Source: Haloarcula pelagica
GTDB taxonomy: Archaea > Halobacteriota > Halobacteria > Halobacteriales > Haloarculaceae
Assembly: GCF_030127105.1 (NCBI RefSeq)
Contig: NZ_CP126161.1
Span: 3,038,001 to 3,102,000, forward strand
Reading direction: 5' to 3'
DNA length: 64,000 nt
The notes under the pieces are model-generated. The model made no database searches. It saw only the letters and a list, made by a program, of their open reading frames with translations, and was not told where the DNA came from. Position 1 is the stretch's first letter. Every line of letters begins with the position of its first letter. Of this stretch, positions 3,829 to 55,297 are shown piece by piece. The position numbers and the translations under genes were made by a program.

Positions 3829-3842
3829 CTGGAGGTGACACG

Positions 3843-4550
3843 ATGACAGAGACGCCAGCGTTCCACGCCGCCCGTGCGGGGCTGTACGCTGCCGTCGCGG
3901 GCGCGTTCGTCTATCCGGAAGCAGCGACAGTCGAGGAGCTGACCGACCGCGATGCGCTCGAAGGAATCGAACGAGCGGGTCGGCGGACTGGAGTCGAAGC
4001 GGAGGCAGCGGCGTTCACCGACGCACTCGCCGACTGCTCGCCGGTCGCCCTCCAGGCGGAGTACAACGACCTGTTCGGCGTCCCCGACGAGGACGGGACG
4101 TACGCCGTCGTTCCCTACGAAGGAAACTACACGGTCGGCTCCGAGATCGACGACGAGCAGCGCCGGATCGCGGCGGTCGTCGGCCTGTTAGAGACGGTCG
4201 GGCTCGAACCGAGCGACGAGTTCCGCGAACGCCAGGACCACGTCGCGACGGAACTGGAACTCATGCAGGTCGCCGCCGGGCAGCGCGCGGTCGTCCACGA
4301 GCGCGCCAGCGACCCCGAGGAAAACGAGGTGCTCGACGAGATCGTCGGCGTCGAGTCGGCGGTACTCTCGAACCACTTGATCGACTTCGTCCCGGCCTTC
4401 GCCCACGATGTCCGCGAGGCGACCGACTGTGACGTGTACCTGGCCGCTGCGGACCTCGCGCAGTCGCTCGTCGAGTCCGACGAGTCGCTGCACCCGCCGG
4501 CGCCGGCGGACCCGGACGACATCTCGGAGAGGGGGGTGGTCGGCCGATGA
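3843..4550 (+). CDS. TorD/NarJ/DmsD-like molybdoenzyme chaperone
   Basis: A 235-residue helical protein with the family look: an N-terminal RAGLYAAVAGAFVYP segment, then LQAEYNDLFG, then a C-terminal region with ELELMQVAA and LSNHLIDFVPAFA. Such chaperones bind the apo catalytic subunit, help insert the Mo cofactor and hold it back from Tat export until mature. The ATG at 3843 is chosen because a perfect GGAGGTGA lies at 3831-3838, four bases upstream; an in-frame ATG at 3825 overlaps the beta stop and would add six residues. It sits between beta and gamma here, whereas in the nar operon the chaperone follows gamma. Its client is presumably the alpha subunit at 2-2647. Confidence 0.8.
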   Translation: MTETPAFHAARAGLYAAVAGAFVYPEAATVEELTDRDALEGIERAGRRTGVEAEAAAFTDALADCSPVALQAEYNDLFGVPDEDGTYAVVPYEGNYTVGSEIDDEQRRIAAVVGLLETVGLEPSDEFRERQDHVATELELMQVAAGQRAVVHERASDPEENEVLDEIVGVESAVLSNHLIDFVPAFAHDVREATDCDVYLAAADLAQSLVESDESLHPPAPADPDDISERGVVGR

Positions 4551-5614
4551 GCGTCGGTGAGCTCCGCGACACTCTCGGTTCGGTGGACCTGCTCGACGGG
4601 GACGCCGCGGTCCGCGCGACGGCCGTCTCCCTGGCCGTCGTCCTCGGACTCCTCCTGGTCCAGGGCGCGGTCGCGGCGGCGGTCACCGGCCCGGGCCAGC
4701 CGACAGCACAGGTCCAGCGTGCGCCCCTGTCGCCGACGGCGACGACGTGGAGCGACGTGCCCAGCCAGACCGTCTCCCTCCAGAAACAGCAGATGGCGGT
4801 CCCCTACGGCGGCGGCTCCGTCGGCGAGATGGACGTACAGGTCGCCACGAACGACTCCCACGTCGCCTTCCGCCTCTCCTGGGCCGACCCGACCCGCGAC
4901 GCCGCCATCCAGTCGCCACGGAACTTCAGCGACGCCGTGGCGGTGATGGCCCGTACGGGGAGCCAGCCGCCGATCACGATGGGCGCGACCGGCAAACCGG
5001 TCAACATCTGGTACTGGCGGGCCAGCTGGCAGTTCCGCAACACGAGCGCTCCCTGGAGCAACGACATGTACGCCTACCCGCACCCGGACGCCGAGACCAA
5101 GCCCGGCCAGGCGGCCGGGAACCCCCTCTCGAAGGCGACCTACGAGCAGTACGCCCAGAACTACTACGCGAAGGGGTACGGCTCGCTGAGCGACGCCCCG
5201 ACCCAGCCAGTCAGGGCCCGCGGAGCCCGGACCGACGGCGAGTGGGCAGTGTCGTTCGTCCGCGAGCGGTCGACCGACGGGCAGTTCGACGCCGCCTTCG
5301 ACGGCTCCGAGACGGTGTATCTGGCCTTCGCCGTCTGGAACGGCAGCGCCGACGAAGTGAACGGGAAGAAGTCGATCACGCTGCGGTACTCGACGCTCGA
5401 CCTCTCGTCGGGGACGTTCTCGCCGCCGGCACAGTCCAGCGGTGGTGACGGCGGCAGCGGGTCGGGCGACGACGGGACCGCTGCTGGCGGGGCTGGCGGG
5501 AGCGCAGGCGGCGGCCCCGTCGGTTTCCTCGACGGCTTCGGCGGACTGATGGGCACCGCGCTCGCGGCCATCGCGGCGTCCTGGACGGTCGCGTACTGGA
5601 GGCTCACACGATGA
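4547..5614 (+). CDS. Haem-b gamma subunit (DdhC / ethylbenzene dehydrogenase gamma-like), membrane-anchored
   Basis: This 355-residue protein has an N-terminal hydrophobic segment (about residues 25-48), a beta-rich body, a Gly/Ser-rich linker (about 290-325) and a C-terminal transmembrane helix. It carries the two landmarks of EBDH-type gamma subunits: a Met in PPITMGATGKP (Met145) and a Lys in NGKKS (274-275), by analogy the axial ligands of haem b. It probably passes electrons between the membrane carrier pool or a halocyanin and the beta subunit. It overlaps the chaperone gene by four bases (ATGA). The full-length C-terminal anchor suggests a membrane-tethered complex, unlike soluble periplasmic DdhC. 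The haem ligation is inferred from family knowledge. Confidence 0.8.
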   Translation: MSVGELRDTLGSVDLLDGDAAVRATAVSLAVVLGLLLVQGAVAAAVTGPGQPTAQVQRAPLSPTATTWSDVPSQTVSLQKQQMAVPYGGGSVGEMDVQVATNDSHVAFRLSWADPTRDAAIQSPRNFSDAVAVMARTGSQPPITMGATGKPVNIWYWRASWQFRNTSAPWSNDMYAYPHPDAETKPGQAAGNPLSKATYEQYAQNYYAKGYGSLSDAPTQPVRARGARTDGEWAVSFVRERSTDGQFDAAFDGSETVYLAFAVWNGSADEVNGKKSITLRYSTLDLSSGTFSPPAQSSGGDGGSGSGDDGTAAGGAGGSAGGGPVGFLDGFGGLMGTALAAIAASWTVAYWRLTR

Positions 5615-6501
5615 CACTCGACGACTATCACAGCGCCCGTAACGGCGCACCGGCCACCGACGAACCGGCTCTCAGGGAGTGCCTCGACAGCTCCGAGCAG
5701 CGACGGGACGCGGCCCTCGCGCTGATCGATGTCGCCGACAGACAGGGACTCGACGACCGAACCGTCGACGCACTCGACGGTGTGGTCCGCGAGGCGACCG
5801 ATCCCGAGGCCCGACAGTACGCCGTCGAAGCCCTGGGGACCGCCGGTGTCGGCACCGAAAGCGTCCGGCGAGCGCTCGACGACGACCACGAGTGGGTGCG
5901 TGCGGAGGCCGTGGTCGCGCTCTCGCGGACGGACCCGAGTGACACCGACCGGCTCGAGAGCGCCATCGAGGACGACAGCGGCTGGGTCCGGCGCAACGCC
6001 ATCGTGGCCCTCGGGAAACTGGGGGCCGTCGATCAGCCGCTACTCGTCGACCGGATCAAGTCCGACGGCCATCCCGCCGTCCGGGAGTACGCGGCGCAGT
6101 TCCTCGGCGAAGTCACCGAGGACACCGAGGCAGTCGTCCGCATCCTCGCGGCGGTGCTGGCCCGGGAACCCAACGCCTACGTCCGGGCGAAAGCCGCCGA
6201 CAGCCTGGGCGAACTCGGGACCGACCGCGCCGAGGAGGCCCTGGAGTCCCAGGGGTTACACGACCGTAGCGAGGACGTGCGCCGGACCGCCAGGGTCGCA
6301 CTGGCGAGCGCCCGGGGGACCGACCCCGAGGAGATCGACCTGCCGGACAGCGGGGAGACCGACGGCTCGCCCCCGATGACCCGGCCGCCGGGTGGCGCCG
6401 ACGCGCCCAGCCCCACCGACCCGCGTGGCCCCGATCAGCCACAGCCAAGCGGTCCCGGGCCGGCGCCGAGTCGGGAGTACGACGGGGGTGACCACCGGTG
6501 A
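5611..6501 (+). CDS. HEAT-repeat (PBS-lyase-like) protein of the molybdoenzyme operon
   Basis: A 296-residue protein made of about six short helical repeats (residues ~25-235) with the recurring pattern V-R-x-x-A-V-x-A-L, for example WVRAEAVVALSR, WVRRNAIVALGK and YVRAKAADSLGE. A proline/glycine-rich acidic tail follows. HEAT proteins act as docking scaffolds; no catalytic motif is visible. It overlaps gamma by four bases, so it is translationally coupled to the enzyme. A second HEAT protein sits at the matching place in the nar operon (52576), which argues for a shared accessory role in assembly or localisation of these enzymes. The exact role is unknown. Confidence 0.8.
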   Translation: MTLDDYHSARNGAPATDEPALRECLDSSEQRRDAALALIDVADRQGLDDRTVDALDGVVREATDPEARQYAVEALGTAGVGTESVRRALDDDHEWVRAEAVVALSRTDPSDTDRLESAIEDDSGWVRRNAIVALGKLGAVDQPLLVDRIKSDGHPAVREYAAQFLGEVTEDTEAVVRILAAVLAREPNAYVRAKAADSLGELGTDRAEEALESQGLHDRSEDVRRTARVALASARGTDPEEIDLPDSGETDGSPPMTRPPGGADAPSPTDPRGPDQPQPSGPGPAPSREYDGGDHR

Positions 6502-7043
6502 GCGAGTCCCCCGCCGAGCAGTCCGTGGGGCTGTCGATCCCCGAGGAGTACGCCGGCGAGTTCGTCGCCGAAGTGTTCGAGGACGCCGAGCGGTCGACCG
6601 ACTGGCCGGGCGTCGTCGACGCCTTCGTCCCGCCCGCCCGACGCGAGGAGTGGGGAGAACTGGACGCGACGGCACAGGTCTGTCAGGTGTTAGACCGGGC
6701 GGGCGCCTACGATCAGTCGGCCGTCGACGCCCTGGAGCGGATCGACGCCGACGCCGAGCGACCGGCGGCCCGCGAGAAGTTCGACGAGGCGATCCGGTGC
6801 CGGCACAACGCAGACGGCTTCCGAAACGCCGTCGCCGACGCCTACGCCAGGGGACGAATCGACGACGACGGGCTGGTCGCGGCGGTCGAACGGACGGACT
6901 TTGGGACCGACACCATCGCTCGTCGCGAGGAGCTACTGGAACTGATCGCGGAGAAACACGAGTTCGAGTTCCGGCCCTACGGCGGGACCTTACTCGACGG
7001 CGAGCGGTTTCAGACCGACTCGTCGGACTCGGCGACCTGGTGA
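6498..7043 (+). CDS. Uncharacterised acidic protein at the end of the molybdoenzyme operon
   Basis: A 181-residue soluble acidic protein with no signal peptide, membrane segment or cysteine cluster; a single Cys lies in AQVCQVLD and one in IRCRHN. I do not recognise a family. The sequence looks helical throughout (EFVAEVFEDAERS, FRNAVADAYARG, EELLELIAEKHEFEF). It starts with GTG at 6498, overlapping the HEAT gene by four bases and preceded by GGGGGTGA, so it is the last gene of the operon. Its 3' end overlaps the convergent gene at 7010-7330 by 34 bases. It might be another assembly factor, inferred only from position. Confidence 0.7.
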   Translation: MSESPAEQSVGLSIPEEYAGEFVAEVFEDAERSTDWPGVVDAFVPPARREEWGELDATAQVCQVLDRAGAYDQSAVDALERIDADAERPAAREKFDEAIRCRHNADGFRNAVADAYARGRIDDDGLVAAVERTDFGTDTIARREELLELIAEKHEFEFRPYGGTLLDGERFQTDSSDSATW

Positions 7044-7330: not shown

Positions 7331-7430
7331 CGTTCGGACGTAGGGACTCCACCACCGTCAACGCTCGCCTCGGAACAGCGGGCCACGACGGAGCCGGTCA
7401 CATTAATCCGCGCAGGCCGTCCCCTCCCAC

Positions 7431-7868
7431 ATGGCAGTCGAGACGATCGACGAGGTCCGGATCGACGCACCCGTCGAACGGGTGTTCGCGTTCATGGACG
7501 AGCCGACGAACCAGGCGGCGGTGACGCCCAGCCTCGCCGTCGCCGAACGCATCGAGCGGCTGGACAACGGCGGCAACCGCGCCCGGTACGTCTACCGGAT
7601 GGTCGGACTGACCTTCGAGGGGGAAGTCCGGGCGCGCCGGTACGAGCCACCCGAGCGGATCGACTACGATCTCGTCGGCGATCTCACCGGTACGATCACC
7701 TGGACGTTCGAGCCAGAGGACGGCGGGACGCGGCTCACGTACGCGGCCAGCTACGACGTACCGGGCCCGCTCCCGGAGTGGCTGTTGGCGCCGGTGATTC
7801 GGTGGTACAACGCACGCGAGGTCCGGCAGTTGTTGGTGGCGGTCCGGGAACGGCTCGAAGCCTCATAG
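7431..7868 (+). CDS. SRPBCC (START/polyketide-cyclase-like) family protein
   Basis: A 145-residue protein with the helix-grip pattern: an N-terminal beta strand then VRIDAPVERVFAFMDEP, central strands (YVYRMVGLTFEGEVRARRYEPPERIDYDL), TWTFEPEDGGTRLTY and a C-terminal amphipathic helix. SRPBCC folds form a hydrophobic pocket for lipids or other ligands; CoxG-like members associate with membrane or molybdoenzyme systems. No catalytic residue can be named. A short leader precedes the ATG at 7431, with a TATA-like cattaat near 7402. It converges on the MutS-like gene. Family firm, ligand unknown. Confidence 0.8.
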   Translation: MAVETIDEVRIDAPVERVFAFMDEPTNQAAVTPSLAVAERIERLDNGGNRARYVYRMVGLTFEGEVRARRYEPPERIDYDLVGDLTGTITWTFEPEDGGTRLTYAASYDVPGPLPEWLLAPVIRWYNAREVRQLLVAVRERLEAS

Positions 7869-7877
7869 CTCGCCTCC

Positions 7878-43284: not shown

Positions 43285-43466
43285 GTGTCGAGATGTCGAG
43301 CTGTTTCCGGCAAATAGTTCAGCGCGAACATGTTCGGCACCGATTTTCACGTAAAAAGCACCCGAGATGTTTGGTCCGACGTTCACCGTCGTCGTCGCGT
43401 AAGGCTCGGACACGAGGGACCGGCTCGAACAGTCAGAAGACTATCATACCCGGCCTCGCCCAAGCT
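43285..43466. promoter_or_regulatory. narO-narA divergent promoter region
   Basis: A perfect palindrome CGAACATGTTCG lies at 43325-43336 (CGAA-N4-TTCG), a few bases upstream of the narO TATA region (43311-43320). The narA TATA-like ctatcata is at 43441-43448, about 22 bases before ATG 43467, so narA is likely leaderless. A CGAAC half-site is at 43426-43430, eleven bases upstream of that TATA. The palindrome matches the operator form I recall for NarO in haloarchaea. Confidence 0.6.
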
Positions 43467-44045
43467 ATGAGACGGAACACGATACTCATCGTCCTGCTGG
43501 TGACCGCGGTGTTGCTCCCGATGTGGTACGTGGCGTTACACGGCGAACCGCCCTCCGAGGAGATCGCGATCGACGAGAGCGTCACCGATCTCCGACCGCT
43601 GGAGGGGCCGATCGACACCCCGAACAAGCTCTCGCCGAGCCAGGTCGGCGTCGTCGTCTGGGTCGCCCTCTTCGGCCTCGTCGGCGTCCTGGCCGGCGCC
43701 CACCAGTTCATGAACCGGGCCGTTCGACCGCCGGACGAAGCGCCGGTCGCCGACGGCGGCCAGCTCACGCCCAGCCTGCCGTGGCTCGAATCGGACAACC
43801 GCTGGGTCGTCGAGTACCACGACGCCTCCGACGCCATCGAGGGACTGGTCGCGATGGGCGGGCTGACCGTCCTCTCGATCGTCTTCGCGGCGCTGTTTAC
43901 CGGCGAGTACCTGACGCTCGCGCGGACCCAGTACTTCGGGCTGTACGCCACCGGGATGTTCGTCTCGCTGGCGCTGTCGACGGTCGCGTACTACGCCTGG
44001 TTCATGCCACACGTCGAGGTCGCGGAATACAGGAGGCACGACTGA
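43467..44045 (+). CDS. narA: NarA: membrane protein of the respiratory nitrate reductase operon
   Basis: A 192-residue protein with three hydrophobic helices (about 5-22, 56-78, 128-150) plus a fourth near 160-182, and a hydrophilic region facing out between the first two. It is the first gene of the haloarchaeal nar operon; its function in electron transfer is not established. The stop overlaps the ATG of narB by one base. The gene name rests on position and on similarity of the operon layout. Confidence 0.7.
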   Translation: MRRNTILIVLLVTAVLLPMWYVALHGEPPSEEIAIDESVTDLRPLEGPIDTPNKLSPSQVGVVVWVALFGLVGVLAGAHQFMNRAVRPPDEAPVADGGQLTPSLPWLESDNRWVVEYHDASDAIEGLVAMGGLTVLSIVFAALFTGEYLTLARTQYFGLYATGMFVSLALSTVAYYAWFMPHVEVAEYRRHD

Positions 44046-44686
44046 TGGACTACCCGAAACCCGACGAGGACGACACGGACGACTGTGGATGCAGCGACAC
44101 CCCGGCGGCCCGCCAGAGCCTCTACAGCGACGCGCGGGCCGAACTCCGGCGGCGGGACTTCGCGAAGTTCCTCGCGACAGTCGGCGGTCTCACCGCCGTC
44201 GCCAGCCTGACGGCGCCCCTGGCCAGCACCACCCAGGTGTTCGAGCGCAGCTACGAGGGGCCGATCTACTCCGACGGCGTCGCGCTCGTCGACGACGCGG
44301 GCGAACCGATCGAGGAGGGCCGCCTCGCTGAGGGCGAGCACATGACGGTCTTCCCCGAGCCCCGGCCCGGCATCGAGGACGCGCCGACGCTGTTGGTGCG
44401 CTACGCCGAAGACGCCTACAGCAACGTCAAAGAGGGCTTTACCGTCAGCGGCTACGCGGCGTTCTCGAAGGTGTGTACCCACGCCGGCTGTATGGTCGGC
44501 AACCGCGACGGGGACCTCATGGTCTGCCCGTGTCACTACGGGAAGTTCGACCCACTCTCCGGCGGGAGCGTCCAGGGCGGCCCGCCGGGGCGGGCGCTCC
44601 CCCAACTCCCGATCACGCTGTCCAGCGACGGGGCGCTGATCGCGACCGGCGACTTCGAAGGGCCAGTCGGCCCGGGGGGTGAGTGA
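44045..44686 (+). CDS. narB: NarB: Rieske iron-sulfur protein with twin-arginine signal
   Basis: A 213-residue Rieske protein. A twin-arginine signal ([18 protein letters not shown], about 31-48) followed by a hydrophobic core predicts Tat export and an N-terminal membrane anchor. The cluster motif is CTHAGCMVG (about 141-149) and [10 protein letters not shown], with Cys and His ligands for the [2Fe-2S] centre. It should take electrons from quinol through narC and pass them to the nitrate reductase. Two extra cysteines (DCGCSD, residues 14 and 16) lie in the N-terminal part. Confidence 0.93.
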
Positions 44687-46122
44687 TGTCCCGCGCCGAC
44701 CGACTCTACGACTGGTTCGACACCAGGCTCGATGTCGAGCGGGGCCAGCAGTTCCTCGGGAAGGCGTTCCCCGCCGAGGACTCGTTCCTGCTCGGGGAGG
44801 TCGCGCTGTTCTGTTTCCTCCTGCTCGTCCTCTCGGGGATCTTCCTGGGCTTTTTCTTCGAGCCCTCGACCTCCGCGGTCGAGTACGACGGCAGCGTCGA
44901 GAAGTTCCAGGGCCAGGAGATGCCCGAGGCGTTCGTCTCCGTGTTGCACATTACCTACGACGTGCCCTTCGGCATGTTCATCCGGCGGCTCCACCACTGG
45001 GCGGCCCACCTCTTTGTCGCCTCGATCGGGTTGCACATGCTCAGGGTGTTTTTCACCGGGGCCTACCGCAACCCACGTGAGCCAAACTGGATCGTCGGCA
45101 CCGGACTGGCGGCGCTGTCGATGGGCGCGGCTTACACCGGCTACGCCCTCCCGTTCGACGAGTTCGCTGCCACCGCGACCAGCATCGGCTACAACCTCAC
45201 CATCTCGGTGCCGCTGCTGGGTGACTTCCTCGGACAGGTGGTCTTCGGTGGGGAGTTCCCCTCCAGCGCGACCATCCCGCGGCTGTACTTCCTGCACGTA
45301 CTGGTCATCCCCATGGCGATTGCAGGGGGCCTAGCGCTGCACATGGCGATCCTGATACGCCAGAAACACACCGAGGCCCCCCGCGAGGGCGACCTGACCG
45401 TCGGCGACGAGACGGTCGACCAGGACGACGACAGCGTCATCATCGGCCTGCCGGCCGTCCCCAACCAGGCGGCCGTCTCGGCGGTCGTGTTCTTCCTGAC
45501 GGCCGCGACCCTCTCGGCGCTCGCGGGGCTGCTCCCGGTCCACAACGTCGCCGAGTACGGCCCCAACGACCCCGCCAGCACGCCGGCACTCATCATGCCC
45601 GACTGGTTCCTGATGTGGGTGTACGGCTTCCTGAAACTGCTCCCCCAGATCAGTCTCTCCATCGGGCCGGCCCACATCAACGGCGAGTTCGTCGGCGGCG
45701 TCCTCATGCCGGGGCTGGTCTTCCTGGCGATCGCCGCCTGGCCGTTCATCGACCGGACGCCCGAGCCGACCCACTTCACGGCCGACCCGCTGGAGCGGCC
45801 CTGGCAGACCGGCGTCGGCGTCGCCGCCGTCGCGTTCGTCATGATCGCCTCGATCGCGGGGATGAACAACATCCTCGCCGACCAGGTGCTGGGGACGACC
45901 ACCGGCGTCGTCAACCCCGTCCTGACTGGGGCGTTGCTCGTGGTCCCGCCGGTGCTTGGCGGGCTCACCTATCTCCTGTTGCGCGACGGTGAGCAGTCGA
46001 CCCCGCCCGACGACGAGGGGGTCGCCGCAGACGGCGGGACGACCGGCAGTGAGAGCGCCGACGCGGGCGCAGTCGGCACCCCTGCCATCGACGACAGCGA
46101 CGGAGGTGGGAGCGATGACTGA
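44686..46122 (+). CDS. narC: NarC: cytochrome b of the nitrate reductase electron-transfer module
   Basis: A 478-residue fused cytochrome b (b6 plus subunit IV-like halves). It includes His ligands in [14 protein letters not shown] and [17 protein letters not shown], a Qo-site segment [11 protein letters not shown] (PEWY-like), and about nine TM helices. It oxidises quinol and reduces the Rieske protein NarB. The C-terminal ~40 residues are acidic. Start at 44686 follows GGGGGGTGAGTG; a GTG just upstream at 44683 is possible. Confidence 0.93.
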
Positions 46123-46294
46123 GATCGCCATCTCCCGCAGACAGTATCGCCTGCTAGACACGGCGAGCAAACTGGTCGGACTCGGCCTCGTGGCCGCCGG
46201 ACTGGAGGCCGGCGGCTCGACGCCGACCGGCCTGGCCCTCGCGCTCGTCGGTACCGCCTGTGCGACTGCGACGGTGTTTCTGAGCCATGAGTAG
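46115..46294 (+). CDS. Small membrane protein between narC and narG
   Basis: A 59-residue protein with two hydrophobic segments (about 17-35 and 38-57; [34 protein letters not shown]). It overlaps narC by eight bases and narG by eight bases, so it is embedded in the translationally coupled operon; SD-like GGAGGTGG precedes its ATG. An open reading frame at this position is known from other haloarchaeal nar operons, without assigned function. Confidence 0.75.
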
Positions 46295-49205
46295 ACAGAC
46301 TCCCGACGACGACCGCTGGACGGATAGTTCGCTGAGCCGCCGCGACTTCGTGCGCGGGCTCGGCGCGGCATCGCTGCTGGGCGCGACCGGCCTCTCGTTC
46401 GCCGACGACGGCATGGAGGGCCTGGAGGCAGTCGACGACCCGATCGGTAACTACCCCTACCGGGACTGGGAGGACCTCTACCGCGAGGAGTGGGACTGGG
46501 ACGACATCGCCCGCTCGACCCACAGCGTCAACTGCACCGGCTCCTGTTCCTGGAACGTCTTCGTCAAGGACGGCCAGGTCTGGCGCGAGGAGCAGGCCGG
46601 GGACTACCCCACGTTCGACGAGAGCCTCCCGGACCCGAACCCGCGAGGCTGCCAGAAAGGGGCCTGTTACACCGACTACGTCAACGCCGACCAGCGCGTG
46701 CTCCACCCCCTTCGCCGTACCGGCGAGCGCGGCGAGGGCCAGTGGGAACGGATCAGTTGGGACGAGGCGCTGACCGAGATCGCCGACCACGTCATCGACG
46801 AGGTCGTCGAGGGGAGATACGACGCTATCTCCGGGTTCACGCCGATCCCGGCGATGTCGCCGGTGAGCTTCGCCAGCGGCTCCCGGCTCATCAACCTCCT
46901 CGGGGGCGTCTCCCACTCGTTCTACGACTGGTACTCGGACCTGCCGCCGGGCCAGCCCATCACCTGGGGCACCCAGACGGACAACGCCGAGAGCGCCGAC
47001 TGGCACAACGCCGACTACATCGTCGCCTGGGGGTCGAACATCAACGTCACGCGCATCCCCGACGCGAAGTACTTCCTCGACGCGGGCTACGAGGGGGCCA
47101 AACGGGTCGGCATCTTCACCGACTACTCCCAGACGGCGATCCACACCGACGAGTGGCTCTCCCCGGAGGGCGGCAGTGACACCGCCCTGGCGCTGGGGAT
47201 GGCCCAGACCATCGTCGACGAAGGCCTGTACGACGAGGCCCACCTGAAAGAGCAGACCGACATGCCCCTGCTCGTCCGGGAGGACACCGGGAAGTTCCTC
47301 CGGGCCGGCGAGGTCGGTCTGGCGGGGGACGCCGACGACCCCGAGAAGGTGTTCGTGATGGTCGACGCCGACGGAAACCTGCGACGCGCGCCGGGCTCTC
47401 TTGGCGAACGCGACGGCCAACACGATCCCGAGGCGAGCATCGAACTGGACTTCGACCCGCAGTTGGGCGTCGAACGGACCGTCGGGACCGACGACGGCGA
47501 GGTGCCGGTGCGGTCGGTCTGGGAGAACCTCCGGGACGAACTCGCCCAGTACACCCCGGAGTTCGTCCACGAGGAGACCGGCGTCGGCGAGAACACCTAC
47601 CAGCGGGTCGCCCGTGAGTTCGCCGAGGCCGACGCCGCCAAGATCATCCACGGCAAGGGCGTCAACGACTGGTACCACAACGACCTGGGCAACCGTGCCA
47701 TCCAGTTGCTCGTCACCCTGACCGGGAACCTCGGCGATCCGGGCACCGGGCTGGACCACTACGTCGGCCAGGAGAAGATCTGGACGTTCCACGGCTGGAA
47801 GGTCCTCTCGTTCCCGACCGGGAGTGTGCGGGGGGTGCCGACGACGCTGTGGACGTACTTCCACGGTGGCATCCTCGACAACACGGATCCCGACACCGCC
47901 GAGAAGATCCGCGAGTCGATCGACAAGGGGTGGATGCCCCTCTACCCGACGGAACGCGAGGACGGCTTCCGGCCCGACCCCTCGACGATGTTCGTCTGGC
48001 GGGGCAACTACTTCAACCAGGCCAAGGGTAACGTCGCCGTCGAGGAGCAACTGTGGCCGAAACTCGACCTCGTGGTCGACATCAACTTCCGGATGGACTC
48101 GACGGCGATGTACTCCGACATCGTCCTCCCCGCGGCGAGCCACTACGAGAAGTACGACCTCTCCGAGACGGACATGCACACCTACGTCCACCCGTTCACG
48201 CCGGCGGTCGAACCGCTGGGGGAGGCAAAGACCGACTGGGAGATCTTCCGCCTGCTCGCCGAGAAGATCCAGGAACGCGCCCGGGAACGGGGCGTCGACC
48301 CCGTCGAGGACAGGAAGTTCGACCGCACGATCGACCTGACGACGATCTACGACGACTTTGTCCGCGACTGGGAGACCGGTGAGGCGGGCGCACTGGAGGA
48401 GGACCGCGCCGCCGCGGAGTTCATCCTCGAACACTCCGAGGAGTCCAACCCCAGCGATAGCGACGAGCAGATCACCTTCGCCGACACCGAGGAACAACCA
48501 CAGCGGCTCCTGAAAGCGGGTCCTCACTGGTCCTCGGACATCAAAGCGGACGAGGCCTACGTCCCCTGGCAGGACTACGTTCACGACAAGGAGCCCTGGC
48601 CGACCTTCACCGGCCGCCAGCAGTACTACGTCGACCACGACTGGTTCCTCGAACTCGGCGAGGAACTGCCCACGCACAAGCGCGGGCCACAGGACACCGG
48701 CGGGGACTACCCGCTGACCTACAACACGCCCCACGGCCGGTGGTCGATCCACTCGACCTGGCGCGACAGCGAGAAGATGCTCCGGCTCCAGCGTGGCGAA
48801 CCGGTCGTCTACCTCAACCCCGACGACGCCGCCGACCGCGGTATCGAGGACGGGGACACCGTCGAGGTGTTCAACGACATGGGTAGCGTCGAGGTCCAGG
48901 CGAAGATCTACCCGTCCGGGGAACCCGGGACCGCCCGCCAGTACTTCGCCTGGGAGAAGTTCCAGTACCCCGACCGGGACAACTTCAACACGCTCGTCCC
49001 GATGTACATGAAGCCGACCCAGCTCGTCCAGTACCCGGAGGACACCGGCGAGCATCTGTACTTCTTCCCGAACTACTGGGGGCCGACCGGCGTCAACAGC
49101 GACGTGAACGTGGACGTTCGACTGACCGACGGGCAGTCGGGCTCGGGAGACGAGCAGCGCGGGTCTGCCGGTGTGGGCCCCGCGGGAGGTGAGTCCGATG
49201 AGTAG
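46287..49205 (+). CDS. narG: Respiratory nitrate reductase alpha subunit NarG
   Basis: A 972-residue Mo-bisMGD enzyme. Tat signal SLSRRDFVRGLG (residues 16-26). FS0 motif His79/Cys83/Cys87 (STHSVNCTGSCSW) and Cys122 (RGCQKGA). FYDWYSDLPPG with Asp214 in the Mo-ligand position. Mid and C-terminal dinucleotide-binding domains extend to TGVNSDVNV. The whole pattern matches NarG closely. The Tat signal predicts catalysis outside the cytoplasmic membrane, so nitrate uptake is not needed. Overlaps its neighbours on both sides. Confidence 0.96.
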   Translation: MSRQTPDDDRWTDSSLSRRDFVRGLGAASLLGATGLSFADDGMEGLEAVDDPIGNYPYRDWEDLYREEWDWDDIARSTHSVNCTGSCSWNVFVKDGQVWREEQAGDYPTFDESLPDPNPRGCQKGACYTDYVNADQRVLHPLRRTGERGEGQWERISWDEALTEIADHVIDEVVEGRYDAISGFTPIPAMSPVSFASGSRLINLLGGVSHSFYDWYSDLPPGQPITWGTQTDNAESADWHNADYIVAWGSNINVTRIPDAKYFLDAGYEGAKRVGIFTDYSQTAIHTDEWLSPEGGSDTALALGMAQTIVDEGLYDEAHLKEQTDMPLLVREDTGKFLRAGEVGLAGDADDPEKVFVMVDADGNLRRAPGSLGERDGQHDPEASIELDFDPQLGVERTVGTDDGEVPVRSVWENLRDELAQYTPEFVHEETGVGENTYQRVAREFAEADAAKIIHGKGVNDWYHNDLGNRAIQLLVTLTGNLGDPGTGLDHYVGQEKIWTFHGWKVLSFPTGSVRGVPTTLWTYFHGGILDNTDPDTAEKIRESIDKGWMPLYPTEREDGFRPDPSTMFVWRGNYFNQAKGNVAVEEQLWPKLDLVVDINFRMDSTAMYSDIVLPAASHYEKYDLSETDMHTYVHPFTPAVEPLGEAKTDWEIFRLLAEKIQERARERGVDPVEDRKFDRTIDLTTIYDDFVRDWETGEAGALEEDRAAAEFILEHSEESNPSDSDEQITFADTEEQPQRLLKAGPHWSSDIKADEAYVPWQDYVHDKEPWPTFTGRQQYYVDHDWFLELGEELPTHKRGPQDTGGDYPLTYNTPHGRWSIHSTWRDSEKMLRLQRGEPVVYLNPDDAADRGIEDGDTVEVFNDMGSVEVQAKIYPSGEPGTARQYFAWEKFQYPDRDNFNTLVPMYMKPTQLVQYPEDTGEHLYFFPNYWGPTGVNSDVNVDVRLTDGQSGSGDEQRGSAGVGPAGGESDE

Positions 49206-50262
49206 CCAGAATCAGGACGGCGAGGACACCCACGTCAACGTCGCCGACGGCGTCGACCACCAGGTCGCGATGGTGATGGACCTGAACAAGTGCATCGGCT
49301 GTCAGACCTGCACCATCGCCTGCAAGTCCCTCTGGACGGAGGGCGGCGGCACCGACTACATGTACTGGAACAACGTCGAGACCAAGCCCGGCGAGGGCTA
49401 CCCGAAGGGCTGGGAGGACTCCGGTGGCGGCTGGCAGTCCAGCGAGCACAAGGACCGCGAGACCGGCGACATCCCGTCCCGCGAGGAGTACGGCCGCGCC
49501 TGGGAGTTCAACCACGAGGAGATCATGTACGAGGGCAGCGACGAGCCGCTTCGCCCCCGGGAAGGCGCCGAGTGGGGGCCCAACTGGGACGAGGACCAGG
49601 GCGCCGGCGAGTACCCCAACAGCTACTACTTCTACCTCCCGCGGATCTGCAACCACTGCACCCACCCCTCCTGTGTCGAGGCTTGCCCGCGCTCGGCAAT
49701 ATACAAACGCGAGGAGGACGGCATCGTCCTGGTCGATCAGGACCGCTGTCGGGGGTATCGGTACTGCGTCGAGGGGTGTCCGTACAAGAAGGTGTACTAC
49801 AACACCGTCTCGAAGAAGTCCGAGAAGTGCATCTTCTGTTACCCCCGCCTGGAGGGCGAGGGACCGGACGGCGAGACGTACGCGCCCGCCTGTGCCGAGG
49901 AGTGCCCCCCACAGCTCCGACTGGTCGGCTTCCTCGACGACGAGGACGGCCCCATCTACAAGCTCGTCGAAGAGTACGAGGTCGCACTGCCGCTGCATCC
50001 GGAGTTCCAGACCCAGCCCAACGTCTACTACATCCCGCCCTATGCCCCCGGCCAGCACACCGAGGACGGCGAGACGGTCGACGTTGACCGCATCCCGCGC
50101 CAGTACCTCCGTGAGCTGTTCGGTGACCGCGTCGACGATGCCTTGGACACCATCGAGCGCGAGCGACAGCGCGCCCGACAGGGGGCCGACAGCGAACTGA
50201 TGGAACTGCTCCAGGACAAGAACCCCGCCAAACAGTACCGACTGGAGGTCTTCGATGACTGA
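49198..50262 (+). CDS. narH: Nitrate reductase beta subunit NarH
   Basis: A 354-residue four-cluster subunit. Group 1: C32, C35, C38, C42 (KCIGCQTCTIACKS). Then CNHCTHPSCVEACP, CRGYRYCVEGCP (Tyr in place of Cys, [3Fe-4S] type), SEKCIFCYPR and CAEECPP. Unlike the beta subunit at 2647, it keeps the KCxxC pair. It conducts electrons from the gamma haem to FS0 of NarG. The ATG at 49198 follows GGGAGGTGAGTCCG and overlaps narG by eight bases. Confidence 0.95.
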   Translation: MSSQNQDGEDTHVNVADGVDHQVAMVMDLNKCIGCQTCTIACKSLWTEGGGTDYMYWNNVETKPGEGYPKGWEDSGGGWQSSEHKDRETGDIPSREEYGRAWEFNHEEIMYEGSDEPLRPREGAEWGPNWDEDQGAGEYPNSYYFYLPRICNHCTHPSCVEACPRSAIYKREEDGIVLVDQDRCRGYRYCVEGCPYKKVYYNTVSKKSEKCIFCYPRLEGEGPDGETYAPACAEECPPQLRLVGFLDDEDGPIYKLVEEYEVALPLHPEFQTQPNVYYIPPYAPGQHTEDGETVDVDRIPRQYLRELFGDRVDDALDTIERERQRARQGADSELMELLQDKNPAKQYRLEVFDD

Positions 50263-51073
50263 CGCCCACCACATCGGGACGGCACTGCTGCTGGGCCTGG
50301 TCGTGGTGACCGCGACGGTCGCGGCGCCGCTCGCGAGCGCCCGCCCGGCCCACGAGATACCGGTCTCGCCGGCGACCGGGAACCTCTCGACGCCGGCCGC
50401 CGACGGCTGGGCGTCGGTCCCGGCCGCTGAGGTTCCGATGACCAGCGCACCGAGTAGCGTCCCCAACGCCGACGACACGACCGTCGAGCGGGTCCACGTC
50501 CAGGCTGCGCGCGGCGATGGGACCCTCTACCTGCGGTTGCAGTGGGACGACGCCACCCGCGACCAGAGCGCCGCCAGCCCCGAGGCGTTCGCCGACCAGG
50601 TCGCGGTCCAGTTCCCGGTCAACGAAAGCGCCCGGCCACCGATCGCGATGGGCGGCCCGGGGAACATGGTCAACGTCTGGTACTGGAGCGCCGACGCCGG
50701 CACGCAGGAACTGCTGGCCGGTGGCGCCGGGTCGACCACCGCGTTCGGCCAGCCCGCGGTCGACGCCGACGCCCGATACGACAACGGCACCTGGTCGGTC
50801 GTCTACGCCCGTTCGGTCAACGCCAGCGGGACCAACCGGACGACCATCACCGACGACGGCGACCTCGACGTGGCCTTCGCGGTCTGGAACGGTTCGAACG
50901 GCGAGCGGGCCGGCCAGAAATCGGTTTCGGAGTGGCACTACTTCCCGTTCGGTGACGGGCCGAGCGGCCCGCCCTACGAGGCCCTGCTGTGGTCCGTCGC
51001 CGGCGTCGCCATCGTCGCGGTCGTCGGCGTGACCGCCTTCGGCGTCCAGCGCGCGAGAGGGGGGATGAAGTGA
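50255..51073 (+). CDS. Haem-b gamma subunit of nitrate reductase (EBDH/DdhC-like)
   Basis: A 272-residue protein with a signal-like hydrophobic N-terminus (about 8-28), a beta-rich domain and a C-terminal TM helix (about 245-265). Met132 in PPIAMGGPG and Lys222 in RAGQKSVSEWH correspond to the axial haem ligands of ethylbenzene dehydrogenase gamma. It is a paralogue of the gamma at 4547. It replaces the classical NarI, so this enzyme is of the archaeal type II form. Overlaps narH by eight bases. Confidence 0.85.
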   Translation: MTDAHHIGTALLLGLVVVTATVAAPLASARPAHEIPVSPATGNLSTPAADGWASVPAAEVPMTSAPSSVPNADDTTVERVHVQAARGDGTLYLRLQWDDATRDQSAASPEAFADQVAVQFPVNESARPPIAMGGPGNMVNVWYWSADAGTQELLAGGAGSTTAFGQPAVDADARYDNGTWSVVYARSVNASGTNRTTITDDGDLDVAFAVWNGSNGERAGQKSVSEWHYFPFGDGPSGPPYEALLWSVAGVAIVAVVGVTAFGVQRARGGMK

Positions 51074-51753
51074 TGGCGACGACGCCCGCCGACGCGCCCG
51101 AGGACCTCGACAGTGACGCGGCCGCCCGCGGGACCGTCTACCGGACGCTCTCGGCGGCGTTCCGGTACCCCGACGAGGCGTTCCACGCCGCGGCCGCGTC
51201 CGGTAGCCTGACGCGGGACCTGCGGCAGTGTCTCGCCCGGACCGCACTCGCGGTCGAGGCCCCCGACCTGGCGACCGGGGACGACTACGAGACGCTCGCC
51301 GCCCGGTACAACGACCTGTTCGAACTGGGCTACAGCGAGTACACCGACCGGACCGACGGCTCGCTGGACAGTTCCGGCCCGCCGGTGCCGCTGTACGAGT
51401 CCAAATACCGGCCCGACCAGTCCTGGAACGACGTGAATCTCGACTTGGCGCGGGCCTACGACCACTACGGCCTGGAGATCGATCAGGACCGCCGGGACAA
51501 CCACGACGCGCTCCGGTACGAACTGGAGTTCGCCGGCTACCTCGCCCGCCGGGAAGCGGTCGCCGAGGCCGACGCGGCGCTGGCCCGCCTGGACTTCCAG
51601 GACCGCCACCTCGGCCACGCGGCCGCCGGCGTCGCCGACCGACTGGCCGACGAACCGGGGACCGACATCTACGGCGCGCTGGGCGACTTTCTGGAGGCGT
51701 TCGTCCGCGCCGACCGGAACGACCTCGCCGACCGGCTGGAGGGGGAGCGATGA
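51073..51753 (+). CDS. narJ: NarJ/TorD-like chaperone
   Basis: A 226-residue helical chaperone: AARGTVYRTLSAAFRYPDEAFH, ETLAARYNDLFELGYSEYTDRTDG, VPLYESKYRPDQSW, HYGLEIDQDRRDNHDALRYELEFAGYLA and a C-terminal YGALGDFLEAFVRADR. It should guide cofactor insertion into NarG and its Tat export. Its ATG overlaps the gamma stop by one base. Confidence 0.88.
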   Translation: MATTPADAPEDLDSDAAARGTVYRTLSAAFRYPDEAFHAAAASGSLTRDLRQCLARTALAVEAPDLATGDDYETLAARYNDLFELGYSEYTDRTDGSLDSSGPPVPLYESKYRPDQSWNDVNLDLARAYDHYGLEIDQDRRDNHDALRYELEFAGYLARREAVAEADAALARLDFQDRHLGHAAAGVADRLADEPGTDIYGALGDFLEAFVRADRNDLADRLEGER

Positions 51754-52579
51754 GCACCCGAGAGGCAGTCGTCGGCCGGCTGCCCGCACTCACAGCGCAG
51801 CGTCGCCGATCGATCCCGGTCGCAGTCGTCGGGGTCGCGGCCGCCGCCGTCGCAGTCCGGTTCGCCGCCGCGCTTTCGGTCAACGCGCCCGGTGGCCCCT
51901 CGATGGGCCTGCCGTCGGTCGACGCGACTGCGACCGCGACCGCCGCGCTCGCGGCCGTCGTCGTCGGCGCGCTCGCCGACCGACCGGCAGCCGGGTTCGG
52001 CCTGCTGTTCGTCGGCGTGTTCGGGCTGCTCTCGCTCGGCTCGGGAGCCGCCGCACTGCCGGCCGCCGTCGCGGTCGTCGCCGGCACGGCTACGGTCGTC
52101 GTCGCCACACGCGACCGGGCCTCGATCGGTGAACTCGCCGTCGGGACCGTCCTCGTGTCGGCGCTCGTGCTCGGGCTAGCAAGCGGTGTGGGCGGCCTCG
52201 CGGCGCTGCGTTCGGTGGCCTCCACGGTCGCGCTGGCCGGCCTGGGACTACTTCCGGTGTTCGCGGCGACCGACGGACGTGCGCTGGTCGGTGGCGGCCT
52301 GGCGTTCGGCGCGGTCGTCTTCGTCGGCCTCTCGGTCCCGTTCGTCACCGGCGCCGTGACCCTCGTCGGCGGCGGCGTCGTCGGGGCTTCGCTCCCGGTC
52401 GTCGCCCTCGCGGCCGCCGGGACCGTCTCGACTGCAGTGCCGCCGGCCGGACGCGAAACTGGCCGCTGCTTGCCGGTGTCGCGCTCCTGGCGCTCGCCGG
52501 TGTCCCGGCGACGCTGGGTCGTGCCGTCCCGTTCGCGCTGGGGATCGCCACGCTGGTCGCCCTGGAGGGGTCGCGATGA
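51750..52579 (+). pseudogene. Multi-TM membrane protein gene of the nar operon, apparently frameshifted
   Basis: From ATG 51750 the sequence encodes a hydrophobic Ala/Val-rich protein with about seven TM segments. The frame stays good until roughly 52420-52455, where it turns into arginine-rich shadow sequence that runs on to 53003 across the next gene. In the -1 frame the hydrophobic character continues (NWPLLAGVALLALAGVPATL) and ends in GSR and a TGA at 52577-52579 that overlaps the ATG of the HEAT gene (ATGA). A single extra base near 52420-52455 restores this. It is either a sequencing error or a real mutation; if intact it would be about 276 residues. Function unknown. Confidence 0.75.
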
Positions 52580-53424
52580 CCGACGACCGCAGCGAGTACG
52601 AGAAACAACTGGAGGCAGAGCCGGACCCGCAACTGGACCCCGAGCGCAGCCCGGGGATGCACACCGACATCGAAGCGCTCGAAGACATCGAGGTGAGCCG
52701 CGCGGACGTGACTATCGGCGAGGCGACGCCCGAGGAACTGGCCGCAGCGGATACGGAACCGGTCGAGGACGCCGACCTCGCGGCCCTGCTCGCCGATCTC
52801 CGGGAGGGCAGCGACACCGACCGGCGCCGGGCGGCCCTGGCGTTGAAGGACGAGCCGACCGACGAGGCGGTCGTGACCGCACTCGCCCGTGCCGCGACGA
52901 CAGACGACGACAGCGATGTCCGGCAGTTCGCCGTCGAGGCGCTGACCGAACACGGCGACGAGCGGACGGCCGCGGTCGCGGTCGAACTGCTCGACGACGC
53001 TGACCCGTGGGTCCGGGCCGAGGCCGTCGTCGCGCTGGACAACCTCGACCGCGAGGCCCACGAGGACGACATCGCGGCCGCGCTCGCCGAGGACGACCAC
53101 CACGCAGTCCGTCGAAACGCTGCCATCTCGCTGTTCAAACTCCGCGGCGAGGCGATGGCAGACGAACTGCTGGAACTGAGCCACGCCGACAGCGAACGGC
53201 TCCGGGAGTGGGCCGCACACATGCTCGCCGGCGTCGACGAGGACCGCGCCCGGGAGCGCCTCGACGCCCTGACCGACGACCCGGCGACCGTCGTCCGCCA
53301 GACGGCAGAGCGCTCCCTGGAGGAAGAGCCGGGGCAGTTCCGCCGGCAGTTCGGCGGCGCCCTGGAGAACGACGCTCGCCTGCTCCCCGGCGAGGACCGA
53401 CTCAACAGGATGCCCGATCTATGA
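52576..53424 (+). CDS. HEAT-repeat protein of the nar operon
   Basis: A 282-residue protein with an acidic N-terminal region (about 1-65) and about five HEAT-like repeats (65-250): DVRQFAVEALTEHG, WVRAEAVVALDNL, AVRRNAAISLFKL, RLREWAAHMLAGV, VVRQTAERSLEEE. It parallels the HEAT protein at 5611 in position and repeat type. SD-like GGAGGGG precedes the ATG. It probably supports maturation or membrane placement of the nitrate reductase, inferred from conserved placement only. Confidence 0.8.
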   Translation: MTDDRSEYEKQLEAEPDPQLDPERSPGMHTDIEALEDIEVSRADVTIGEATPEELAAADTEPVEDADLAALLADLREGSDTDRRRAALALKDEPTDEAVVTALARAATTDDDSDVRQFAVEALTEHGDERTAAVAVELLDDADPWVRAEAVVALDNLDREAHEDDIAAALAEDDHHAVRRNAAISLFKLRGEAMADELLELSHADSERLREWAAHMLAGVDEDRARERLDALTDDPATVVRQTAERSLEEEPGQFRRQFGGALENDARLLPGEDRLNRMPDL

Positions 53425-54674
53425 GCGAGAACGCCCACCAGACGCTGACCGACCGCGTCGAAGCACAGCTCCGCGAAGTGCGTGACCCACAGGCCGACCT
53501 CTCGGTGTTCGAGGCCGGCTTCGTCCAGGATATCGCAGTCGACGACGGCGAGGTGACGATCGAGACCGACCTGACTGCCGTCGACGGCGACACCGCCGAT
53601 TCCGTCGTCGAGGCGATGTTGCGGGCCGTCGACGACGTTGACGGCGTCGACAGCGTCCACGTCGAGAGCACCACCCCTTCCAGCGAGGGGCGCTCCGCCG
53701 TCGCGGCCTTCGACCACGTGATCGCCGTCGCCAGCGCGAAAGGCGGCGTCGGGAAGTCAACGACCGCAGCCCACCTGGCCTGCGGGCTGGCTGCCGACAG
53801 CGACGTGGCGCTGTTCGACGCCGACATCCACGGTCCGAACGTCCCCGATCTGCTGGCGGTCTCCGGGCCGATCCACTCCAGCGACGAGGGCGACCCGCTC
53901 CCGGTCCGGACCGGGGGCCTGGACGTGATGAGCGTCGGTCTGATGGAGGACGGCGCGCCGCTGGCCTGGCGCGGCGCGATGGCTCACGACGCGCTGGATG
54001 ACCTCTTTACGAACACCGCCTGGCGCAACGACGACGTGCTCGTCATCGATCTCCCGCCGGGGACCGGTGACGTGGTGTTGACGACGCTCCAGGAGGTCCC
54101 CGTCGACGGCGTCGTCGTCGTCACCACCCCGTTCCACGCGAGCGTCAGCGACACGAGTCGGACGGTGGAACTGTTCCGTGACAACGACGTGCCGGTGCTG
54201 GGAACCGTCGTCAACATGGCCGAGTACGTCTGTGACTGCTGTGGCGAGGCGAACGACCTCTTCGCCGAGGCCGCGGGACCGTCCGGGATCGGCGACCTCG
54301 ACACGTCCGTCCTCGCTCGGCTACCGTTCACGCACGACCTCCAGGCGACGCCCGAACCCGGCGACGTTCCCGACCCGATCACGGACCTCGCGGACGGGGT
54401 CGCCGAGGCCGCCGAGACGGCCGGCGAGGTCGACGTTCCCGAGGGCGCGGTCGACATCCGCGGGCTCGAACCCCAGGAACGAAAGGACCGCGTGCGCGAA
54501 CGGTTCGGCGAGCTCGACGCGGGCGAGGCGTTCGTCCTCGTCAGCGACCGGGACCCGGCGCCGGTCGGTCCGTTCCTGGGCCGACTGGCCGAGGCGCCCC
54601 GGGAGGCGTTCGATCCCTTCGAGACTCGCCGGGCGACGCCCGACGCCTGGGTCCTCCGGACCGAGAAACCGTGA
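53421..54674 (+). CDS. MIP18-Mrp/NBP35-DUF2249 fusion, Fe-S carrier ATPase
   Basis: A 417-residue three-domain protein. Residues ~1-85 are a MIP18 (DUF59) domain (LREVRDPQADLSVFEAGFVQDIAV). Residues ~93-340 are an Mrp/ApbC ATPase with deviant Walker A ASAKGGVGKSTTAAHL, FDADIHGPNVPDLL, IDLPPGTGDVVLT and a cysteine motif YVCDCCGEAND. Residues ~345-417 are DUF2249 (DIRGLEPQERKDRVRERFG). Mrp proteins hold and transfer Fe-S clusters. Placement between the HEAT gene and mobA, with four-base overlaps on both sides, argues that it serves NarG, NarH or NarB maturation. Confidence 0.88.
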   Translation: MSENAHQTLTDRVEAQLREVRDPQADLSVFEAGFVQDIAVDDGEVTIETDLTAVDGDTADSVVEAMLRAVDDVDGVDSVHVESTTPSSEGRSAVAAFDHVIAVASAKGGVGKSTTAAHLACGLAADSDVALFDADIHGPNVPDLLAVSGPIHSSDEGDPLPVRTGGLDVMSVGLMEDGAPLAWRGAMAHDALDDLFTNTAWRNDDVLVIDLPPGTGDVVLTTLQEVPVDGVVVVTTPFHASVSDTSRTVELFRDNDVPVLGTVVNMAEYVCDCCGEANDLFAEAAGPSGIGDLDTSVLARLPFTHDLQATPEPGDVPDPITDLADGVAEAAETAGEVDVPEGAVDIRGLEPQERKDRVRERFGELDAGEAFVLVSDRDPAPVGPFLGRLAEAPREAFDPFETRRATPDAWVLRTEKP

Positions 54675-55297
54675 CCAAGGCGACCGGTGTCGTCCTCGCG
54701 GGCGGCCGCTCGCGTCGGTTCGCGGGCGGCGACAAGGCCCTGGCGACACTGGACGGCGACCCGCTGCTCGTCCACGTCGTCCGGGCGCTGGCCGCGGTGG
54801 CCGACGGGGTCGTCGTGAACTGCCGAGCGGACCAGCGACCGTCGTTCGAGGCCGCCCTCGCTGCCGCCGATCTCGACGGGCCGGTCTCGTTCGCCGTCGA
54901 CGACCGGCCCGACGAGGGACCGCTGGCCGGCCTCGTTCGGGCGTTCGGTGTGATCGACACCGAGTACGCCGTCGTCCTCGCCTGTGACATGCCGCTGGTC
55001 CCGGCGTCGTCGCTCACGGCACTGCTAGAGCGTGCGGCCGACGCGGGGACGGCTGTCGTCCCACGGACGACCGGCGGCCTCGAACCGACCTGTGCGGTGT
55101 ATCGGGTCGGCCGGGGCCGTTCCGCTGCCGAGACGGCCTACACCGACGGCGAGCGGAGCCTCCACGCGCTGTTGCAGCGGCTATCGCCGACCGTCGTAGA
55201 CATTTCGGCGGTCGGCCTCGACGAGCGGTCGCTGACCAGCGTCGATACCGTCGAGACGCTCGCTCGCCTCCGCGGGGCGTCCCGGGGAAACCACTAA
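54671..55297 (+). CDS. mobA: Molybdenum cofactor guanylyltransferase MobA
   Basis: A 208-residue enzyme with LAGGRSRRFAGGDKALATLDG (nucleotide-binding N-terminus), DEGPLAGLVRAF and VVLACDMPLVP. It adds GMP to Mo-MPT to form MGD, the cofactor used by both NarG and the alpha subunit at 2. The GTG start at 54671 overlaps the previous stop by four bases. It is the last clear gene of the nar transcription unit. Confidence 0.9.
   Translation: MTKATGVVLAGGRSRRFAGGDKALATLDGDPLLVHVVRALAAVADGVVVNCRADQRPSFEAALAAADLDGPVSFAVDDRPDEGPLAGLVRAFGVIDTEYAVVLACDMPLVPASSLTALLERAADAGTAVVPRTTGGLEPTCAVYRVGRGRSAAETAYTDGERSLHALLQRLSPTVVDISAVGLDERSLTSVDTVETLARLRGASRGNH

Follow-up and report, generated by a model that had tools for sequence, protein, structure and literature searches.

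The DNA analysed here, a 64,000-nt stretch of the Haloarcula pelagica genome (GCF_030127105.1, NZ_CP126161.1:3,038,001-3,102,000, forward strand; hereafter the window), carries inside its nar operon a gene for a 417-aa protein (53421..54674, + strand) in which an Mrp (NBP35)-type ATPase is fused to an N-terminal MIP18 domain and a C-terminal DUF2249 domain. In haloarchaeal genomes this fusion accompanied the operons of Nar and of a second, Nxr-like molybdoenzyme, and sister Mrps preceded Nxr-type operons. With a probability of roughly 60%, the fusion is an operon-dedicated Mrp/NBP35-type iron-sulfur (Fe-S) carrier for Nar/Nxr-type molybdoenzymes, with DUF2249 as a docking domain. This is the simplest reading of the domains, the motifs and the linkage.

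Analysis of the open reading frame with Pfam and NCBIfam placed all three domains above the Pfam cut-offs, in agreement with the initial annotation, which had described a triple fusion inside the nar operon. The MIP18 (FeS_assembly_P) domain covered residues 11-81 (53451..53663, +; E 1.6e-9, 38.3 bits against a cut-off of 23.5), the Mrp/NUBPL (NUBPL/ParA) P-loop ATPase domain residues 98-315 (53712..54365, +; E 5.9e-65, with 219.6 bits for PF10609 against 27.1) and the DUF2249 domain residues 344-415 (54450..54665, +; E 5.1e-15, 55.5 bits against 29.5). MIP18 and DUF2249 were each matched at E<=0.01 in 35 of 36 relatives. The ATPase domain, recognized by Pfam and by the structural model with Foldseek, holds a deviant Walker A motif, KGGVGKS (residues 107-113; 53739..53759, +), and a CxxC cluster motif (C271 and C274; 54231..54242, +); the columns of K107, K112, C271 and C274 were invariant across 36 aligned fusions (alignment A1). 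KGGVGK was present in all 74 Nar-type Mrps, all 26 second-operon Mrps and 7 of 8 Nxr-type Mrps, and the cysteines were absent from one of the eight Nxr-type rows in the alignment. Operon-linked fusions read SAKGG or STKGG, against SGKGG in housekeeping Mrps. When the full-length model was searched with Foldseek, ApbC (8zkc) and Cfd1 (6g2g) were matched at E 3.6e-24 and 1.6e-18, and both were the top solved matches by sequence and fold alike. The protein scored below the NCBIfam equivalog cut-offs for ApbC (PRK11670; 182.8 bits vs. 348) and for MrpORP (190.8 bits vs. 450).

The gene lies between a HEAT-repeat gene and a mobA-like gene, as had been claimed, with a 4-nt overlap on either side (ATGA at the HEAT stop and fusion start, GTGA at the fusion stop and mobA-like start). 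A second strong Mrp match in the same genome (E 4.4e-50) was 22 kb off and aligned only up to residue 321. DUF2249 was matched four times in all in this genome; two of the matches other than the fusion adjoin on opposite strands elsewhere in it (G000:C1:2921709-2922726; L001, L004).

Linkage to molybdoenzyme operons

Among 292 haloarchaeal genomes, the class of the window, a threshold of E<=1e-60 gave 97 Mrp matches, spread over 83 genomes. Eighty of them, in 68 genomes, ran into DUF2249 and were counted as fusions (match reaching at least query residue 395); in six of these the match began past residue 70, leaving MIP18 wholly or partly outside it. There were 62 narG loci in 61 genomes, and 53 of these loci had a fusion on their own strand at a distance of 4.2-6.0 kb downstream, two of the pairs (G121, G267) holding only if the contig is circular. 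The fusions were thus not mostly away from Nar/Dmso operons, a distribution that had been set beforehand as refuting: 53 of 80 were downstream of narG. Fusion and enzyme (narG or the alpha subunit of the second operon) occurred together in 65 genomes, the fusion alone in 3, the enzyme alone in 8 and neither in 216. Counting all operon types, 90 of the 97 Mrp matches adjoined a molybdoenzyme operon (53+22+9+6). Outside the class, no match among those listed from 294 genomes of the phylum reached the end of DUF2249, all ending by residue 368; loci of Hyphomicrobiaceae, Hyphomonadaceae, Rhodopirellula and actinobacterial metagenome-assembled genomes matched to residue 337 at most.

The neighbourhoods of all 27 fusions away from narG were inspected, and 22 of them adjoined a homologue of a second molybdoenzyme operon that the window itself carries (2..7043, +, assigned by homology; it has an alpha gene cut by the window start and genes for beta, a TorD-type chaperone, heme-b gamma, HEAT and a protein of unknown function). 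The usual order was alpha, beta, TorD-type chaperone, heme-b gamma subunit, HEAT, a gene of unknown function and then the fusion; in two g6 genomes the fusion was upstream instead. The second alpha occurred in 25 of the 292 genomes and had an adjacent fusion in 22, or 23 counting a divergent copy in G146 (L156). It stood without one in G088, at a contig end, and in the window's own genome, where tblastn revealed no Mrp remnant behind the operon (6801-8200; best E 0.074). The window's second alpha, whose gene start lies outside the window, had Kuenenia nitrite oxidoreductase subunit A as its best solved match (297 bits), followed by a perchlorate-reductase-type protein (223 bits). The remaining five fusions were those of G187 (contig end, beside HEAT), G244, G168:C11 (near one lone gene of the second operon), G165 and G281. 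The G165 copy (L050) is truncated and lies between Rieske and MobA-like genes; the G244 copy (L041) has HEAT as its sole operon neighbour.

Seventeen of the 97 matches stopped before the end of DUF2249. Nine of these were in Psr-like operons (an alpha and a beta subunit with an NrfD membrane subunit and a chaperone of the TorD type; thiosulfate reductase 2vpw was the top solved match, and family scans covered L164 only), whose Mrp was housekeeping-like and without DUF2249. Six preceded an operon of an alpha subunit of about 1,200 aa, a beta subunit and a chaperone, referred to as Nxr-type. The other two were an orphan of the Nxr-type kind (G117) and a housekeeping copy next to the genes for IMPDH and ribonucleotide reductase (G218). 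Subunits were compared at one Nxr-type locus, L161 (10993-15800), where alpha matched Kuenenia NxrA with 739.8 bits over 1,141 residues (next solved protein, 139.8) and beta matched NxrB with 332.7 bits (next, 188.9). By sequence, the Nxr-type alpha/beta pairs of haloarchaea are candidates for archaeal nitrite oxidation. The Nxr-type alpha was found at 27 loci in 23 of the 292 genomes; when those 23 genomes were searched, a sister Mrp was upstream on the same strand at 24 loci, within 0.8 kb at 23 of them and at 5.4 kb in G257. G166:C44 and both G117 loci had no upstream Mrp. No DUF2249 was detected in five Nxr-type sister Mrps scanned singly (L161 included); their tails nevertheless aligned at the same place. 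Cluster delivery to the nar enzymes, as proposed in the initial annotation, is consistent with the linkage and the conserved Fe-S carrier motifs. However, a Nar-only reading is too narrow, with 22 of the 27 non-nar fusions ending or flanking the Nxr-like operon and sister Mrps preceding Nxr-type operons.

A tree of 82 rows was built from the MIP18 and ATPase part only, quickly and without bootstrap, with housekeeping rows chosen by blastp. Nar, second-operon and Nxr-type Mrps fell together on one side of a branch with a Shimodaira-Hasegawa-like approximate likelihood ratio (SH-aLRT) support of 100, and the Mrps of Psr-like operons grouped on the housekeeping side. The six operon labels needed 5 changes, the minimum possible; rows of unclear context had been relabelled by neighbours or identity before this count, somewhat favouring it. 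L044 was assigned to the second operon, L073 to the Nxr-type group, and Nar-like rows that were orphans or cut by a contig end to Nar. Some long rows met in the tree (L059, L150). Since Psr-like operons hold a separate, housekeeping-like Mrp, recruitment of Mrps to molybdoenzyme operons seems to have happened more than once. Within the operon-linked lineage, the carriers have probably split by client, one branch going with Nar and others with the Nxr-like and Nxr-type enzymes.

All 44 genomes searched for a housekeeping Mrp had one. The presence of this protein, like that of nar operons without a fusion, would suit a redundant passenger, that is, an Mrp paralogue of little effect, overlapped by the housekeeping protein and kept by operon linkage. 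However, the motifs were conserved in 36 diverse copies and the tree followed operon type, making a passenger very unlikely. Possible but doubtful is a wider arrangement, a haloarchaeal family of client-specific Fe-S delivery ATPases in which the tail domain, and perhaps HEAT, sets the client, with the nitrite-oxidation candidates included. If true, the ATPases found with Nar, Nxr-like, Nxr-type and, separately, Psr-like enzymes would form a compact analogue of the cytosolic Fe-S targeting system of eukaryotes.

Several observations weigh against a carrier dedicated to these operons. A DmsA-like alpha (that of L104), used as a control and named from the make-up of its operon (with an NrfD subunit and a DmsD-like chaperone; none of the NCBIfam alpha models scored over cut-off), occurred at 46 loci in 40 genomes, and none of the 46 had an Mrp on the same strand. 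This comparison covered 31 of the 97 Mrp matches, from DmsA-bearing genomes plus some others; three further copies (G084, G106, G115), on other contigs or more than 300 kb away, were excluded. An Mrp match was within 15 kb at 10 of the 46 loci; all 10 belong to genus g1 genomes in which the nar operon is the neighbour, and each match was on the opposite strand. The dimethyl sulfoxide (DMSO) reductase part of the Nar/Dmso association suggested initially was therefore not borne out, and DMSO-type reductase was rejected as a further client. Fe-S content is not enough to account for the linkage, because DmsA-like Fe-S molybdoenzymes have no carrier of their own. In raw sequences, 14 of 26 second-operon Mrps had CxC instead of CxxC (e.g., L053, L160). 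Nine narG loci had no fusion; two of these (G128, G187; L060, L061) reached the contig end first, and seven were truly without it (five g5 genomes, G001 and the second narG of G224), indicating that the fusion is not strictly required for Nar. Such loci may rely on the housekeeping Mrp. The G281 fusion (L040) was isolated among unrelated metabolic genes with no narG; together with those of G165 and G244, it is an apparent leftover after narG loss. The client could also be a different operon product, and no biochemistry of the fusion was found in the literature examined.

Fold of DUF2249 and the proposed role of the fusion

Modelled alone from 48 rows, DUF2249 reached a predicted local distance difference test (pLDDT) score of 93.4 and a predicted template modelling (pTM) score of 0.81, with the order beta-alpha-beta-alpha-beta-beta. 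The best Foldseek match was E. coli TusA in 3lvj at a modest E of 7.4e-3 (TM 0.65), and nothing was found at E<=0.001. In VIA-align 2, the TsuB part of 8k1r aligned with Z 9.2 and a root-mean-square deviation of 2.2 over 72 positions, and the titles of five of the six top rows named TusA, SirA-like or TsuB proteins. A sequence search of the PDB had TusA as its first two matches (E about 0.03), and hhalign against haloarchaeal TusA gave a probability of 65% (E 6e-5 for a single comparison). The modelled domain is TusA-like in fold, and common descent with TusA is likely. The accessible text of PMC11218638 and PMC6282519 does not mention this likeness.

The fold and the weak sequence similarity would allow DUF2249 to act as a TusA-like sulfur carrier, e.g., in sulfuration of the molybdenum cofactor. 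However, the TusA cysteine position was not Cys in DUF2249, no other Cys was conserved and 62 of 74 Nar-type copies had none in the domain, making sulfur transfer extremely improbable; TusA-type sulfur chemistry was rejected for want of Cys. With the fold kept and the cysteine absent, DUF2249 is more likely partner-binding than sulfur-carrying.

As a dedicated carrier, the fusion would form a dimer holding a [4Fe-4S] cluster between the CxxC motifs, and its ATPase would drive hand-over of the cluster to apo-subunits of the exported molybdoenzyme encoded alongside it. The recipients would be NarG, NarH and perhaps the Rieske protein, which would be loaded in the cytoplasm before they leave by twin-arginine translocation (Tat). 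The two end domains, MIP18 at the N-terminus and DUF2249 at the C-terminus, may serve as docking or adaptor modules, the latter possibly binding the chaperone, the HEAT protein or a desulfurase/scaffold.

The fusion might instead mend Fe-S clusters that NO or O2 has damaged in denitrifying cells, DUF2249 then acting in sensing or as a stress module. Such a role resembles suggestions for DUF2249/hemerythrin proteins and DrpA, and would fit the four DUF2249 matches in the window's genome. In the accessible text of the respective papers, all four Haloferax mediterranei DUF2249 genes were induced under denitrification (PMC11218638) and the DUF2249 proteins DrpA/DrpB belonged to Thermus nitrate respiration clusters (PMC6282519). 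However, the DrpA histidines are reported there in one H. mediterranei paralogue only, and not in the nar fusion (PMC11218638). The fusion also tracked molybdoenzyme operons, with 22 copies beside the Nxr-like operon and relatives beside Nxr-type operons, and its chaperone and HEAT neighbours fit assembly better than general repair. A repair or stress role is unlikely.

Eukaryotic cytosolic Fe-S assembly includes MMS19, CIAO2/MIP18 and NBP35, and the HEAT protein, the MIP18 domain and the NBP35-type ATPase might cooperate in a similar module with HEAT docking the client. At 54 of the 56 other distinct nar loci the gene immediately before the fusion was HEAT, in most cases overlapping it or separated from it by a short gap, and HEAT was present in 26 of 28 second-operon loci examined. 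However, Mrp occurred without HEAT in 7 Nxr-type and 9 Psr-like loci examined, and HEAT without the fusion in some g5 genomes. In the PDB, the HEAT profile hit generic HEAT proteins and designed alphaReps but did not find MMS19. Across operon types HEAT tracked the heme-b gamma subunit, so this subunit may be its partner. A module of this kind is unlikely.

Relation to described carriers

Mrp/ApbC/NBP35 carriers (8zkc, 6g2g) resemble the window fusion in combining MIP18 with a P-loop ATPase bearing CxxC; the fusion differs in its extra DUF2249, in SAKGG/STKGG for SGKGG and in its dedication to one operon. NUBPL/IND1 is likewise a NUBPL-type protein that serves a single respiratory enzyme with several clusters, and its function is experimental whereas that of the fusion is predicted. 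It is mitochondrial, assembles complex I and is not known to carry DUF2249. MrpORP is also a two-domain Mrp proposed as an Fe-S biogenesis factor in the accessible text of PMC6345978, but carries another added domain, and the fusion scored below its NCBIfam cut-off. Thermus DrpA/DrpB are DUF2249 proteins of nitrate respiration clusters too, without the Mrp part; their proposed role is nitrate sensing (PMC6282519, accessible text; role as cited in PMC11218638). TusA sulfur carriers share the fold of DUF2249, but DUF2249 lacks the active-site Cys.

The fusion and its place in the nar operon are already in print. In the accessible text of PMC11218638, H. mediterranei E6P09_17415 is a P-loop NTPase and iron-sulfur carrier that contains DUF2249 and is encoded in the nar operon. 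Its expression rose under denitrification with a log2 fold change of 3.60, and a possible gene fusion is remarked on; Fe-S delivery is implicit in this annotation. The same text gives no MIP18 domain, clade, other molybdoenzyme operons, Mrp or TusA. E6P09_17415 was compared by description, and Haloferax denitrificans and relatives (L112, L113, L116, L117) by sequence. In the open-access literature, a weak negative, no paper was found joining Mrp to haloarchaeal nitrate reductase or the nar operon, nor one joining DUF2249 and Mrp. Among the open-access matches listed for Mrp, molybdoenzymes, iron-sulfur and haloarchaea, none was on the fusion by title, and nothing on it was present in the accessible text of PMC8305020, PMC8301774, PMC10100899, PMC9765009 and PMC2483277. 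New here are the distribution across haloarchaeal genomes, the links to second and Nxr-type operons and the TusA-like DUF2249 fold without a conserved Cys. Fe-S loading of exported multi-cluster enzymes and the client specificity of carriers are judged largely open in archaea. With a carrier clade that follows enzyme type, natural cases of presence and absence and the tractable host Haloferax, client specificity is directly testable; a further use of the linkage is that it draws attention to Nxr-like and Nxr-type enzymes that await characterisation.

The nar operon of the window

The operon runs in the order Rieske, cytochrome b, NarG, NarH, heme-b gamma, NarJ-type chaperone, membrane protein, HEAT, fusion and MobA-like. 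An exact copy of the palindromic denitrification motif CGAAYATDKTYG, found by motif search and known from the accessible text of PMC11218638, lies at 43325..43336 and precedes the first operon gene (43467..44045, +), which was named narA/ORF1 by position only. With up to one mismatch allowed, the window had 5 matches where 2.46 would be expected, and use was therefore limited to the exact copy. Downstream follow the Rieske protein NarB (44045..44686, +; Pfam and operon order), cytochrome b NarC (44686..46122, +; Pfam/NCBIfam), the catalytic subunit NarG (46287..49205, +; TIGR03479, 1323.7 bits vs. a cut-off of 984.75), the Fe-S subunit NarH (49198..50262, +; TIGR03478), the heme-b gamma subunit of EB_dh type (50255..51073, +; TIGR03477) and the NarJ-type chaperone (51073..51753, +; TIGR03482), the last three also over cut-off.

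The 282-aa HEAT-repeat protein (52576..53424, +; Pfam) precedes the fusion, and the MobA-like NTP transferase (54671..55297, +; GTG start, Pfam) follows it. The latter scored 102.3 bits on the NCBIfam MobA model, below the cut-off of 151.85, and was therefore named by domain only. A MobA-like gene came directly after the fusion at only 4 of the 56 other nar loci, showing that coordination with MobA and molybdopterin guanine dinucleotide (MGD) formation, a further suggestion of the initial annotation, is not general; MobA/MGD coupling was dropped as a conserved trait. Between narJ and HEAT, the reading frames show a membrane protein gene (51750..52579, +), absent from the initial annotation, that is frameshifted near 52430. 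Of the 65 other nar loci, 58 had an intact open reading frame of at least 220 aa at this position, and the split in the window is either a sequencing error or a mutation.

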